A stretch of 64,000 nt of DNA from Byssothecium circinans (taxonomy: Eukaryota; Ascomycota; Dothideomycetes; Pleosporales; Massarinaceae), in contig ML976983.1 in assembly GCA_010015675.1 (NCBI GenBank), positions 843,496 through 907,495 on the forward strand, in the 5' to 3' direction. This document shows, piece by piece, positions 42,175 through 49,818 of the stretch; position 1 is the first letter of the stretch; the number at the start of each line of letters is the position of its first letter. The position numbers and the translations under genes are program-made. Under the pieces are notes generated by a model. It did no database searches. It was not told the origin of the DNA and saw nothing but the letters and a program-made list of their open reading frames with translations.

Positions 42175-44580
42175 ATGAATTTGGACTCCGACACGGAATG
42201 CGGACATGAAGGTGCATCCTTGATTCAGTTAGATCCGCCGCATCGGTGGGGTCGGGGTGCAGACATGTGTACCGAATTGGATACCAGGTCGTTGCAAGAT
42301 CTGGCCGAGGAATTAGCGGATTATGATCTGAGAGGGATCGAAAGCGACGATGACGCCAGCTCCACTGTGGGTAGCTACTCAATATGGTACTGCATACTAG
42401 CTCACCGGAATACTTAGGGTCTGCTCCATAACTCTCCTTGCACTGGCATCGACCGATCTAGTGGCTTAGAGAAGCCTTATACTTCAACACTTGGGCCACC
42501 CCAGCTTGACCGAACCCAAGTCTCCGAGTTGAGTGTGATATCGGATGCAGGTGACCAACAGCACCAGAAGCGACTGGTTCTTCCAAGATCAGACACTTCG
42601 CTCCTTTCCTCTGACGACGAAGACTCTCCTGGCTCTGTCCAAAAAGCATGACCCAAGGCATAGGCTGCAGGCTGCCATTATGCAAGCGATGCAAACGAGA
42701 AATGGCTTCTCAGAGTTTCTCCCCAAAAGCCAATTGTATCGCCTCATCAACCAGGAAAATGTCAAACGGGAACTCGAGCAGCAATCATTCAGTAAATCGC
42801 CCAGCCAAATAGAAAATTACACCGACATCATTTGCCGTCAGCAACTAGTAGTCCTCCCGGATGGTAGAGAGAAACTGAGGTCGTTCAGGAAGATCTTCGG
42901 GTTGCTTGTGCTGGCCGAGAGAGTTGAATCCATCAGTAACTTCCTTGACAACAATGTGAGCGATCTCGACTTGCCACTAATCGACGTCCAAACTAAAGGA
43001 TGGCCCGATCTGCGACGTAATGATTCTTTCGGGAAGGCTACGGGGGGCCCCCTCAGCGTGTTCAAAAATCCCAGCTGGAGCCCAATGCAGCTGTACAATT
43101 TTAAGAACCAGCAATGGCAATTCCTGGCGCCGTTCTTTTCGCAGAACCGGGGGCACAAGGCAAATCACTACGTCCTTCAAGACCAACACATCCTACCATT
43201 CACCCCTTTGGATGATACAAGAGATGACGATGAATATTATGGTGGCTTTGCCAAAGTCATCACCGTCAAAATCCATAGTGACCATCACGACTTCCGAGAT
43301 GAGAAACTCTGTGCCAAAGGTTTTGCTATCAAAGAGCTCATCACCATGGATAGACGAACTTTCGAAAAGGAAGTCAAAATTCTGGCAACATTCAGTGGTG
43401 AAAGTGATCACGCTCATATCGTTTCACTTCTTGCTACATACGAGCAGTTCAACAAGTTTCATTTAATTTTCCACAAAGCCGAAGGAGACCTTTTCCGGTA
43501 TTGGAAGGAGATCAACAGATCTCCAGAGTTTAGTCATAGAAGCGTTGACTGGATGGTAAGACAGTGTGCCGGTATCGCCGAGGGTTTGGGGAAGCTCCAT
43601 CTGCATTCTACCAGGACGCAGCATCATTCCCATGCGAACGGAACTGTTCTCCACGTCGACCATGAGAAACACGTGCAAGTAATCCCGCCGATGTGCCGGG
43701 AGGCACGATCAGATTCCGTGCAATCAAACGGCGCCAGAATTGTACCCATAAGTCCCACATTCGCACAGTCAGAAAGCGATTGTTGGCCCGAATCGGCCGC
43801 ACGCGTCCAGGAAGAGAAATATGGCCGACATGGGGACATCAGCCCTGGAAATATTCTTTTCTACGAGAACAACGACGACTCTGGGTCTACCTTTGATGGT
43901 GTTCTCAAGCTGTCTGACTTTGGAGAAGCTGAACTAAACTCTCGTTTTAGCCGAACTAAGAAAGAGAATGTCGCGACTACCCTAACATATCGGCCGCCTG
44001 AATGCGATTTCCCCCCTAGACACATTCGCCAGTCATGCGATATCTGGTGCCTTGGCTGTGTTTTTCTCGAGTTCACCGCTTGGTTGATTGGAGGCGCAGA
44101 GCTCCTGGAATTCTTTGGAAGACAACGATTGTCAAGGGATCCGTTTTCTCAGGAAAAGACTGATATCTTCTTCAATGCTGAGGAGATTCCAATAACAAGG
44201 GATCTCGTGCCTGTGCTCAAGGCAAGCGTAACGCAAGTACGTATGATGAGAACGGTTACTCTCAAGAGCACTGATTTCTGACGATCAAGTTCCAGTTCAT
44301 CGAAAGGCTTCACCGAGATCTACGGTGCAGCGAGCTCATCCACGAATTTTTGAACTTCATTCAGTACGACATGCTCGTGGTAGATGAAAGTCAACGCGCG
44401 TCCTGCGATAAAGTGTCCAGCACCCTCAAGAGCATACTCCGCCGTGGTAAACTCGACAAGGAATATGCCGTAAAAGCCTTACCGTGGCACGCCGACACAA
44501 AACTCCGCCGCAGAGATCGTCGAGCCACAGTGGTACACCTAGAGTGGCCAAATAAGGAGACGGGTCATGCTCTTGTGTAG
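42175..44580 (+). CDS. Protein kinase, HET-island type, possible frameshift
   Basis: Exon 1 is 42175-42366, followed by a 51-bp intron (GTGGGT donor, CTTAG acceptor). The main exon runs from 42418 to 44236, and the last exon 44296-44580 follows a 59-bp intron (GTACGT donor). Within the main exon the frame changes near 42,550-42,650. Either a 37-bp intron (42551-42587) is removed, giving about 752 residues, or there is a one-base shift in the A5 run at 42641-42645. Kinase motifs downstream are intact: a VAIK-like FAIKELI lysine near 43,325, catalytic loop HGDISPGN at 43829, DFG near 43,915, and YRPPEC in place of APE. The N-terminal region shares with the next gene a helical block ending (V/L)SDLDLPL. 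It lacks a HET domain. No function can be assigned beyond kinase; the neighbouring kinase-HET gene suggests a shared signalling context. Confidence 0.65.
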
Positions 44581-45199: not shown

Positions 45200-48100
45200 A
45201 TGGACGGTCTCGACGAAATATTAGACAACCTTACTGCCGAACCTCTCTCCCTGGCCAACCAAATCTTGCATTCCTTTTCGCACGGAGTCTCTAGCTTTGA
45301 TGATGGACCAACTCACGAATACTTGGCGAATGGCCTGTTCGATGAAATGATTACGGTCGAAGGAATTAGGAACGAAATGATTCGATGCGTAGAACACGGG
45401 CGCATTTTGGGAGGAGAGTCAGATGTTGGAACGATTCGCTTGAGAAGCTTTGCAAATGGATCTTTGAAAACGCCCGAAAGGTATTAGCTATCACAGAGCA
45501 CTGTGGCCTCGACGAAGATCTCAAACTCATTGCGATGGCGGTCTTCCAAAGACATGATTTCTGTGACGACAGGCTTCCCATTGAAGAACCTTCACCTACC
45601 GCGACGGTGTGGGAACACTTCCCTGGGACCGTCTGGGGTCCTATGAAGCTTTCACTGTTCTACAATTTCCAGTTCAAGTTCACTGTACCTGTGTTTACAT
45701 TAAGACAGTACAAGTATGACTTGAAGCCCAGAGATATCTTCCCTTTCACCATTGAACCTACACTGTCCAAAATAGGTGGGTTCAGTTCAGTCCATAAGGT
45801 CCGGATTCACAAAGACCACCAGGAAGATCAACGGATGCTGCAAGTACGTACTCCAATTCACATTTCCTTCTCATCTGATGTCATGATAGGTCGCCATCAA
45901 AGAAATCAAAGTCGGTTCCGGAAACGACCAGACTGACGAAGCATGGAACAGGGAAGCGAAGGCGCTAAACGACATCAATGAGCTCCACCATCCCCATATC
46001 ATCAAATGTATTGCGGCAATTCGTCGTGGCAATGGTCGCTACTTCATGTTTCCGTGGGCCGATGGCGACAACCTTCGCGAGTACTGGAGTAAGGAATCCA
46101 GGCAAAATCCCGAGCCGGACATTGTGCTGCACGCCCTTCAACAGCTGCATGGTATTGCAGATGCCCTTCACACGCTCCACACTTTCTGCACAAGGCAGAC
46201 GCCGCCACAATCGTCCAATTATGACGAGCCTCAACTGGAACAGCTACGTTTGAATGGGCCTGTCGTGCGCGTTCAAGATGAGGTCTATACGCCTAGCGAT
46301 GATGCTCCGCAAGAGTCGATTAGACATGGTGATCTGAAGCCGGATAACATTCTTGTATTTTCTGATCCAGAGAGCAGGCATGGGGTCTTTCGCATAGCCG
46401 ACCTGGGTTTAGCAAAGAAGCATATTGTCAAAACAAGTCTCCGAGATCACCACACCAGCACCATATTTGGCACACGTCGATACGAGCCACCGGAAGCTGG
46501 TGGAGTGCAGTCTCGACTTTTCGACATATGGTCAATGGGATGCATCACACTCGAATACATCATCTGGTTGCTCTACGGCAACGACGAGTTGCAAGACTTC
46601 AACGAGGCTATTGACATGCAACAAAGCCAATACTTCGAGCGTTCCCGAACAGATGACTCCGCACGAGACGCAGAGGTGAACCCCATCGTCCGCAGCTGCA
46701 TCGAGCATATCAAGTCCAAAGACCCGGAATGTTCTCAGGAGTCCGCCATTAGAGACCTTCTGGAAATCGTACAAACCAGGCTTCTTATCGTTCCTTTACC
46801 GCCAGATCGCGTGAGCTCTACGAAACGGGGTCGTTTGTTGGCACCTCCAGCGTTAGGGGAATCGGTTACCAGATACCGTGCTACAGCTGCCGAATTTCGC
46901 GACGCATTGAAAAGAATCCTGGATAAGGTCAGTACACCTGGATATTTGCTAACGGGAAAAGATCGTACCAATATAATCCGTCCAGCACGCCTTCCAGCTC
47001 CACTCCCTTCGAGAGTGGCCCAGCGAAATGGAGCACCACGGCATTTGGAAGTCAATAATCCGCAGCCCCAATCTTTGACTGGGATTTTAGGTCGCAACTA
47101 TAGAGTAAGCTCTCTTTTTTTAAATTTCGTCTAGTTGCTGACAGGAATTAGGCTGTGAGTTGACAATTCATGAGTTAACTCTCACAACAACGCTAATGGA
47201 TCTGCTCGTCCCATCACAGGATGTAAGTAATCCTACCCTCACAACATCCCAGCACAGAACTAACTGAAGAATGGTAGTACGTAAGTAGATTGACTTGATT
47301 CTTTTCCAGCTGTACTAACGGAGCCAGACCGTAAGTACTTTATCTTCCACTTCGTTCTTGAAAAACCACGCCTCGATGTCTGCCGAATCAACTGCGGCTT
47401 TGTGATACTGATTACTTCCCGGTATATCCTGTTTATTCGATTGCGATTGAAAACAGTGGCTAATTAATAATAATTGCTGCCGTAGTTGGTGAGTTTCCAA
47501 GGTCATCTTTCCGCAATCCAGTCACTGACCGTACAAGCCGGTACGTACCTAAACCGGACATGCTCTAGTGTTGATATACAGACATTCTGATTCACAAACA
47601 CAGCCAGTAAGCTCCTCCAATCCTATACCGTTGCCGGACTAAACAGAATCAAAGCTCAAGGGATGGGAATTTCCTGTTGACAATCAGTTTGCAACGAGTG
47701 TAGTTGAACGTTTGACCCCTTCGCATGCATGGCCTCACACGCCCTCCGAATTGTGCGCTCGATGCAGCAACCTGGACTTTCTAGCCGGAGGTTTTGCCTT
47801 CGAGGATAAGGTCTCGACGTTGGAAAGTCAAGGACAGATTTGCGACTTGTGCAGACTTCTGCACCAGGCCTGCCGCAGCATGCAAGCTTCTGCAAGTGGG
47901 CGGGTTAGGTTTGAACGCAATCAGTCCAAGGTGACGATGAGCGATAACTCGCTGCCTGTTCTGTCGATCTACCGGAGTCCAGGTTCGTAACTTTCCCTAC
48001 CAACTTGTGTGCGTTGCGGAGAAGATGAATCCTTCTGTTATCTACTTTATCGATCATAGGATCATGGTGTGAGCTGTCTTGCACACATTGTAACTCATTC

Positions 48101-49818
48101 ATGGCGCACGTCCTAGGTTGACGTGACTCTATACGTTGAGTTCTGGATGCTAATGCCTGTGAATGTCCAGATGCCGAGTTTCCCCTGCCGATTCAGATCG
48201 GCCTCCCAGAACTCACGAGGCCTGGTTCAGAAGCATTTTTCACCGTGTTGAAGCTTTGGCTCCAAGACTGCAACACTAGCCACGCCGACTGCCAAGTCGT
48301 TGCGCACAAGAAGTTTCCTACCAGGCTCATCGAGGTTGGTACATCACAAGCCCCCAAACTACGTCTTTTAGAAACTAGCGAGGAAGATATCTCAGGACAA
48401 CAATACATCGCTCTTTCGCACCCTTGGGGAGATACAACCCGATTCCCACCGTTCAACACGCTGCGCAAAGATGATAGCGGAGCAGGCCATGATATTGAAA
48501 GCTTCAAGCGCGAGATACCGTTCAGCCAGCTCCCGATGACGTTTCAGCATGCTGTGATATGCACCCGAGCGCTCGATATTCGATACCTCTGGATCGACTC
48601 AATCTGCATCATCCAAGGCAAAGACGGCGACTTCAGCGAAGAAGCGAACAGAATGGAAGATGTTTACAGCGGAGCATACTGTGTCTTTGCGGCCAGTCGA
48701 GCAAGGCATCAGCATGATGGGTTTCTCAAAGACCGCCCACGGGCAAACTATGTGACTCTGAGAGGTGCTGGTGGGAAACCGTACTACCTCTGTCAAGCCA
48801 TGGATAACTTCAGTCAGGATGTCTTGGAAGGATCATTGAACAAGCGAGGCTGGGTCTTGCAGGAAAGAGTTTTGGCTCGTCGTACAATCTTCTTCGCGGA
48901 AACCCAGACGTATTTTGAATGTGGTAGCGGAGTGCGGTGCGAGACCTTGGCAAGGATGCGCAAGTGAGTGAAGCATTGAAGCCCCACTTCGACATCCCAC
49001 CGCACGATTTTCTAATGGTTCTGCACAGCAACATGGCTGACTTCCTCGGTGATCCCAACTTCCCAGTCAAAGCTATGCGCACCAACTCGCGTGCTCTGAA
49101 GATATCCTACTTCCAAGACCTCTACCAGAAGTACTCGCGGTTGAACTTCACAAGGGACGACGACCGACCGTTTGCGATTGCAGGCATCGAGAAGCGGCTC
49201 CAAGTCGCCTACAATACAAAGGGAGGCTACGGGATCTTCGACGATGGACCTGACGGTGGTCTCTTCCATCGAAGTCTACTTTGGAAGCGTGGAGAAGACA
49301 ACAACAACAAAACGACCATGAGACTAATCGACTTCCCAGCCGAGCGAAATATTAGGGTGCCCAGCTGGTCGTGGATGGCATATAGTGGAGGGATCGAATA
49401 CACAGACCCGCCGTTCCAGGCAGCCGAGTGGGAAAAGGATGACATCTCGCCTCCCTGGACACGCGACCAAGAGGGAGCGTCAAGCTCACTATCGGCCCCT
49501 TTGCATCTCGATATGGCGTTGAATGCAATTGTGAGGGACTTTACTGTTGCCGGAAGATCGAAAGACGAAGCTAACCTCAAGCTTACGTACGACATGGAGA
49601 GGACGGCTTCAAACGGGACACGAACGCAGTGCGTTGTTGTTGCCAGATCGAGGGATGAGCGGTCGTATCGAGATAAGACGCATTATGTGCTTCTTGTTGC
49701 ACAGCAGAGGTCGGGCACGGTGAGGGAGGAGAAGGTGTACAGGCGTGTTGGAGCTGGGGTTATGCCGGGGAAGTTTATCACTTTGGATAAACCGGGCACT
49801 GCGGCGCGGATTCTGTGA
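45200..49818 (+). CDS. Protein kinase-HET domain fusion with micro-exon array
   Basis: Proposed exons: 45200-45388; about 45445-45843; 45890-47104; seven 3-nt exons (next entry); 47655-47982; 48171-48963; 49029-49818. This gives about 1,240 residues. The kinase part has VAIKEIK (45890), H46325-GDLKPDN, DLG in place of DFG, and a RRYEPPEA segment. A linker WEFPVDNQFA and a Cys motif LCARCSNLDF, then C-x2-C (QICDLC), precede the HET domain. HET signatures are YIALSHPWGDT (about 48403), LWIDSICIIQ (about 48588) and RGWVLQERVLARR (about 48847). HET domains execute heterokaryon-incompatibility cell death in ascomycetes, and a linked kinase suggests regulated signalling. The junction between the first two exons is uncertain: it needs either a 56- or 59-bp intron with a weak GTAGAA donor or a one-base frameshift. 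Confidence 0.75.
47105..47654 (+). other. Array of eight introns and seven 3-nt micro-exons
   Basis: After the kinase exon (ends 47104) the sequence can be parsed as introns 47105-47151, 47155-47219, 47223-47277, 47281-47327, 47331-47485, 47489-47537, 47541-47603 and 47607-47654. Each begins GTAAGY, GTGAGT or GTACGT and ends AG. Branch-site-like CTGAC, CTAAT, ACTAAC or CTAAA lies near each acceptor. The bases between them are exactly three each: GCT, GAT, TAC, ACC, TTG, CCG and CCA, all in phase 0 and open. The alternative is one 550-bp intron with the same outer sites. The sequence cannot decide between these. Confidence 0.6.

Follow-up and report, generated by a model that had tools for sequence, protein, structure and literature searches.

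We have identified, in a kinase-HET gene of the fungus Byssothecium circinans (Pleosporales, Massarinaceae), a region of 550 bp that very probably consists of eight ordinary short fungal introns, which cut the heptapeptide A-D-Y-T-L-P-P into seven successive exons of one codon each. The simplest reading would be that of a short linear motif, conserved in relatives, that is divided by introns; judging from the sequence, it is almost certain that the seven codons are true exons. The window, that is, the whole stretch of 64,000 nucleotides analysed, is located on contig 7 of a 48.4-Mb assembly, and in a protein search its gene matched the B. circinans protein P0001 (CC80DRAFT_466036) at 99% over the searched region.

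The domain order of the gene, with the Pfam matches on separate exons, is PF00069 kinase, linker and PF06985 HET, which places the product among the kinase-HET (Tol-like) proteins; some related proteins carry the names Tol-like or TOL in their source records. The parts of the gene that surround the array are the following:

45890..47104, + strand: kinase exon 5' of the array, an open frame ending in GRNYR at phase 0 (Pfam PF00069, E 4.4e-23)
47655..47982, + strand: exon after the array, beginning LKGWEFPVDNQFA, with two CxxC pairs and no Pfam match
47983..48170, + strand: ordinary single intron of 188 nt, our internal control, with residue spacing as in homologues
48171..48963, + strand: HET-domain exon (Pfam PF06985, E 2.4e-27)

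The CxxC pairs of the exon after the array (LCARC and CDLC) are nearly invariant in a 16-sequence alignment, and this exon, between the linker and the HET domain, could encode a metal-binding module. In schistosome-type micro-exon genes, most of the coding sequence lies in small symmetrical exons; the exons flanking the array measure 1215 nt (upstream) and 328 nt (downstream), and the gene is therefore not of that type.

Upstream there is a second kinase open frame (42539-44281, PF00069 by Pfam). Eight of the ten homologues compared besides P0001 are long proteins (1,852-2,057 aa) whose N-terminal half has a stretch 37-55% identical to this frame, and P0002 and P0004 match it weakly, through their single kinase; the P0001 model fuses both kinase frames into 1,960 aa. 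Since the eight long homologues carry the upstream-kinase stretch, the two kinase frames likely belong to one kinase-kinase-HET gene or to a conserved pair of genes. A reading-frame change was also seen in the N-terminal part of the array gene, within 45394-45424: the alignment with P0002 follows one frame to 45394 and another from 45445, that with P0004 is in the second frame from 45424, and P0001 spans the change with a gap of about 20 nt, as read from the letters. A sequencing error, true damage to the gene or a junction that went unrecognised could each account for this change, and because of it the array gene may be damaged or mis-assembled upstream.

The array itself is composed of these elements:

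47105..47151, + strand: intron 1, 47 nt, GTAAGC...TTAG
47152..47154, + strand: micro-exon 1, GCT = Ala
47155..47219, + strand: intron 2, 65 nt, GTGAGT...ACAG
47220..47222, + strand: micro-exon 2, GAT = Asp
47223..47277, + strand: intron 3, 55 nt, GTAAGT...GTAG
47278..47280, + strand: micro-exon 3, TAC = Tyr
47281..47327, + strand: intron 4, 47 nt, GTAAGT...CCAG
47328..47330, + strand: micro-exon 4, ACC = Thr
47331..47485, + strand: intron 5, 155 nt, GTAAGT...GTAG
47486..47488, + strand: micro-exon 5, TTG = Leu
47489..47537, + strand: intron 6, 49 nt, GTGAGT...CAAG
47538..47540, + strand: micro-exon 6, CCG = Pro
47541..47603, + strand: intron 7, 63 nt, GTACGT...ACAG
47604..47606, + strand: micro-exon 7, CCA = Pro
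47607..47654, + strand: intron 8, 48 nt, GTAAGC...AAAG

The initial annotation had divided 47105-47654 into eight introns and seven 3-nt exons, with GTRNGY donors, AG acceptors and a nearby branch-like motif in every intron, phase-0 junctions and stop-free codons. Our analysis reproduced this parse at the sequence level and confirmed the splice signals of all eight introns: the donors are GTRAGY in seven of them and GTACGT in the remaining one, and each contains a branch motif CTRAY (CTAAA in the case of intron 8), with its A at a distance of 9-23 nt upstream of the intron end. All junctions are in phase 0, and the joined codons, GCT GAT TAC ACC TTG CCG CCA, are free of stops and read A-D-Y-T-L-P-P. 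At the sequence level, the seven exons are all putative micro-exons, being no longer than 30 nt and having canonical splice sites on both sides. The weak sites of the array are the acceptor (AAAG) and the branch motif (CTAAA) of intron 8, and intron 5, with its 155 nt, is long in comparison with the neighbouring introns. Upon retention, introns 1-5, 7 and 8 bring in an in-frame stop, and intron 6 (49 nt) is stop-free and shifts the frame. Two other known arrangements were considered and rejected. In a stwintron, the outer intron has its donor or its acceptor motif broken by an inner one, and here the eight donors and acceptors are all contiguous. A zero-length recursive splice site is an AG|GT without an exon, and AG followed directly by GTRNGY does not occur in the 550 bp.

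Short motifs are found everywhere, and an ordinary intron might simply happen to hold AG-NNN-GT patterns: AGNNNGTRNGY occurs at 69 sites in a background of 312,500 bases, consisting of the rest of the window, on both strands, and 13 stretches of the same genome (nine around kinase-like genes and four arbitrary ones). Nevertheless, the probability of this explanation is negligible. The sites alone number seven in the 550 bp versus 0.12 expected (Poisson 7e-11, for a pattern selected after the region had been viewed), the maximum in any 560 bp of the background is three, and the peptide spelled is the motif of the homologues. The stricter AGNNNGTRAGY was seen six times versus 0.03 expected. Counts for exon lengths from 0 to 12 were 0, 0, 0, 7, 0, 0, 0, 2, 0, 0, 1, 1 and 0, versus 0.09-0.15 expected for each, so that length 3 stands out (7 versus 0.12), with length 7 as the runner-up (2).

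It is also important to consider how much freedom the choice of splice sites allows. When any GT and any AG were accepted, with introns of at least 40 nt and both outer exon ends fixed, 388 parses totalled 21 nt, and exactly one of them, the seven one-codon exons, spells ADYTLPP; with GTRNGY donors there are eight parses, one of which spells it. Only one of 2,520 residue orders can be spelled from the region, and it is the real one. In addition, none of 2,000 shuffled regions is able to spell ADYTLPP, nor do any of 2,488 GT...AG stretches of 540-570 bp sampled elsewhere in the window. The uniqueness of the parse, together with these controls on order, shuffling and other stretches, indicates that the ADYTLPP reading is not owed to freedom in choosing splice sites.

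Special attention was given to the homologues, in which it had been suggested to look for a matching seven-residue segment. A search of a protein collection with the joined protein as query gave 376 proteins above threshold, of which the best 120 were taken. As anchor we used the downstream W-x-[FYI]-x-x-[DE]-x-x-F followed by the CxxC pair, a pattern that does not include the heptapeptide and was written after the alignment had been seen; with it, 89 of the 119 best homologues (the B. circinans record being excluded) were anchored and 30 were not anchorable. The exact ADYTLPP is present at this place in 17 of the 89, six of seven residues match in 22, five in 13, four in 5, and three or fewer in 32. 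The segment was thus found with at least four of the seven residues in 57 of the 89 anchored homologues, its order matching that of the codons, and the residues of the micro-exons are conserved to that extent; many homologues read A-D-Y-[TS]-L-P-P-[LM]-x-x-W here. Against the profile of all 89 homologues, the observed residue order ranks first of 2,520, and its score was not reached when triplets were drawn at random from the region 1,000,000 times.

Among the best 120 homologues, 23 are metagenome-only proteins. Fourteen of these end immediately behind CETLxKxxK or an equivalent sequence, at the start of the next donor, as a raw open reading frame would; of the others, three run past this point, three reach the far C-terminus and three end earlier. 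The motif (at least four of seven residues) is carried by 13 of the 14 raw-ORF-like proteins, the remaining one (P0104) being not anchorable, and because it is uninterrupted in them, the linker of those fungi is encoded without introns. Motif carriers make up 20 of the 21 anchored metagenomic proteins. The 68 non-metagenomic anchored proteins comprise 37 with the motif, 12 gapped, 2 with an intron-like stretch and 17 unclassed, unclassed linkers amounting to 18 of the 89 overall. The models with the motif include P0004 of Paraphaeosphaeria. As regards the DNA of relatives, a scan of viral contigs found no relative, and a scan of prokaryote genomes found two weak matches, both of them in bacterial assemblies.

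In a 49-row alignment, whose rows were picked mostly among motif carriers, the D of ADYTLPP is invariant and Y, L, P and P are nearly so. A structure model of the homologue P0014, built on 49 sequences and used for confidence and secondary structure, has a mean pLDDT of 76.7 and a pTM of 0.51; in it, the heptapeptide (424-430) ends a low-confidence segment (391-430) and adjoins the more confident HET-side part; the linker segment ending in the heptapeptide is probably disordered. As an internal control we used the 188-nt intron at 47983-48170, whose flanking residues keep a seven-residue spacing in all 17 pattern-matching proteins, P0001 included, out of 46 examined (29 are without a pattern match). 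Given this constant spacing, a long intron alone does not give the effect, and hidden exons within the control intron are not supported.

The deposited model P0001 is without the heptapeptide: it reads ...RNYR-VSSLFLNF-LKGWEF, where VSSLFLNF is what the opening 24 nt of intron 1 encode. In 12 of the 89 homologue models (Kalmusia, Lophium, Paramyrothecium, four Apiospora, three Fusarium, Colletotrichum higginsianum and P0073), R or K is joined directly to L-x-x-W, and two models (Zopfia and Fusarium oxysporum) have an intron-like stretch in the linker; these 14 models include P0066 of Apiospora and P0005 of Zopfia. A further protein search, started from a Fusarium model, added P0214, P0215 and P0216, in which L-x-x-W likewise follows R without a gap. 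In the gapped models, the micro-exons may be hidden or the motif may have been lost, and loss is possible in some species. More speculatively, since 12 of the 89 models drop the motif cleanly and two read intron-like sequence, hidden one-codon exons may be common in the kinase-HET family across Pezizomycotina. The Fusarium oxysporum models P0074 and P0086 show SR-VSKVYHFQ or SR-VSKVYHLQ before or instead of W-E-F, a stretch that looks like the start of a retained intron at the same R boundary.

We also identified a paralogue in the same genome (L023, contig 12), with an identity of 43-46% over two segments of the kinase and of 33% over the linker exon. Its linker (1919-2121) reads ...NPQ^GAT^EYKF^TPLDDHWEY, in which GAT encodes D and the introns are in phase 0. 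The two small exons are as follows:

1979-1981 of L023: 3-nt exon GAT
2054-2065 of L023: 12-nt exon (EYKF)

The annotation of this paralogue (P0121) joins NPQ to TPLDD and skips both of them. The corresponding proteins read AQ-N-EYRF-TPLDD in Bimuria (P0126), EEYRFEPLDD in Polyplosphaeria (P0128) and EEYRYTPLDD in Kalmusia (P0134). These three are the only carriers of the EY[KR][FY] segment among 93 homologues newly listed for the paralogue, the rest being without the segment or gapped, which makes its support narrower than that of the main gene. Counted back from the conserved leucine, DEYKFTP in the paralogue and ADYTLPP in the main gene are both seven residues long. It is important to note that the array fills every phase-0 position of the motif; that the three linker introns of the paralogue coincide with positions in the array is therefore weak evidence of common descent.

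These models bear on the conservative alternative of a single 550-bp intron (47105-47654), with the heptapeptide absent from the protein and the internal sites being an unused relic or serving a minor isoform. Its product would be in frame, the 12 models that join R or K to L-x-x-W have just such a linker, and the frame break upstream in the gene also speaks for it. We nonetheless consider this alternative very improbable, because it would delete a heptapeptide recognisable in 57 of the 89 homologues, because the seven codons still give the exact consensus, and because eight intact donors and acceptors with branch motifs are unlikely in an unused relic. The gapped models, moreover, are weak evidence of true loss, given that the paralogue annotation skips micro-exons that are backed by three orthologue models.

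Under the preferred reading of eight introns and seven one-codon exons, the order of splicing becomes relevant. In an exon of 3 nt, acceptor and donor lie too close together to be occupied simultaneously; exons of this length leave no room for recognition of both ends in one step, and the introns would thus have to be removed in order. Most likely, the spliceosome would take out the eight introns successively, by intron definition, each removal adding a codon to the growing exon and leaving a normal donor for the next. The lengths of the array introns suffice for normal fungal splicing. The mature protein would then be kinase-ADYTLPP-LKGWEF-HET, as in relatives without linker introns. We infer that all seven codons are included in the mRNA, that splicing follows this order and that the array is constitutive and not regulatory; it may be called a recursive splicing device only in the sense of ordered splicing.

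With exons that each consist of a single phase-0 codon, any skipping would be expected to remove whole codons from the linker and to leave it in frame. This raises the idea of a regulatory array, in which in-frame codon skipping alters the linker and tunes or triggers the HET part in response to the state of the splicing machinery. The symmetry of the phase-0 exons, the stops or frameshift caused by retained introns, and the conservation of D, Y, L, P and P in the 49 rows (mostly motif carriers) would fit this idea, although the motif sits where a probably disordered linker, modelled with low confidence, meets the HET part. Some relatives have an uninterrupted linker, so that the array is dispensable for the family; we regard such regulation as unlikely. 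A splicing-integrity gate, in which eight ordered splicings build an ADYTLPP clamp, skipping gives graded linkers and disturbed splicing releases or disables the HET part, is in our judgement quite unlikely.

With regard to the origin of the array, the initial annotation had suggested an intron-multiplication product. Introner-like elements are near-identical introns at many genomic places. Their occurrence has been reported in Dothideomycetes, according to the available part of that report (PMC4457414), and the regular one-codon steps, all in phase 0, would suit a ladder of copies of one intron, introner-like or tandem, inserted at successive codon boundaries. However, copying found no support: the best of the 28 intron pairs scores 10, where shuffled sequences have a median of 10 and a 95% point of 13, and the search of the genome, which skips very common words, found no second copy at E <= 0.001, the one genomic match being the array itself. 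By these two comparisons, the introns are not introner-like elements, and neither comparison speaks for recent copying; if the copies were old, they could have diverged past recognition, and the duplication ladder as a whole is unlikely. Two routes to the array can be considered. In one, the many introns of the linker are old and were lost by many relatives in a single step; in the other, introns were gained stepwise at each codon boundary. Loss of introns through reverse transcription has been argued for plant APC11 in the available part of one report (PMC8831610). Among near relatives, P0003 (58% identical) is without linker introns and the Kalmusia model P0002 (61%) is gapped, a contrast that fits either route.

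If transcripts confirm it, seven one-codon exons follow one another in this gene. Such a run would put the spliceosome to a natural stress test, in which it would meet, within 550 bp, seven exons each smaller than a single splice-site footprint, and the run could be used to study how every successive codon boundary comes to be filled by an intron. P0001 and P0121 illustrate that annotation can skip micro-exons despite conserved residues, and fungal micro-exons may for this reason be undercounted.

The gene shares its domains and its linker motif with the kinase-HET (Tol-like) proteins of Pezizomycotina, several of which, unlike it, have the linker uninterrupted. The published micro-exons are compared here as the available parts of the cited reports describe them. 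In filamentous fungi, the Xlr2 gene of Trichoderma has a 20-nt micro-exon that the JGI model missed and whose inclusion depends on glucose, and its authors state that functional micro-exons had previously been undescribed in these organisms (PMC11121469); both are micro-exons of a filamentous fungus, but that of Xlr2 is a single exon of 20 nt. In plants, APC11 and VPS55 have 1-nt and other small micro-exons, which annotation misses and which in some relatives form part of an uninterrupted exon, and rice has two neighbouring ones of 5 nt and 12 nt (PMC8831610). The array resembles these plant cases in the size of its exons, in being missed by annotation and in having uninterrupted relatives, whereas theirs are single or in an adjacent pair. 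The micro-exon genes of schistosomes have many very small symmetrical exons, which make up most of the coding region and are used for protein variation (PMC4350168); here, small symmetrical exons are limited to 21 nt of one kinase-HET linker. Exact-phrase searches of the open-licence PMC literature found no comparable run of one-codon exons. Single 3-nt micro-exons are described in Drosophila troponin T and homothorax and in rodent NCAM (PMC7392893, PMC8042270), where, as here, one codon has an exon of its own; theirs are single, whereas the present ones are seven in succession, separated by introns of 47-155 nt. The longest run with a 3-nt exon that we met in the literature, as far as the available part of that report describes it, is that of RPS24, with three consecutive micro-exons of 3, 18 and 22 bp (PMC12686416). 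The array is like RPS24 in having consecutive micro-exons that include one of 3 bp, but RPS24 has three, of which one is of 3 bp, and the B. circinans gene would have seven, all of them of 3 nt.
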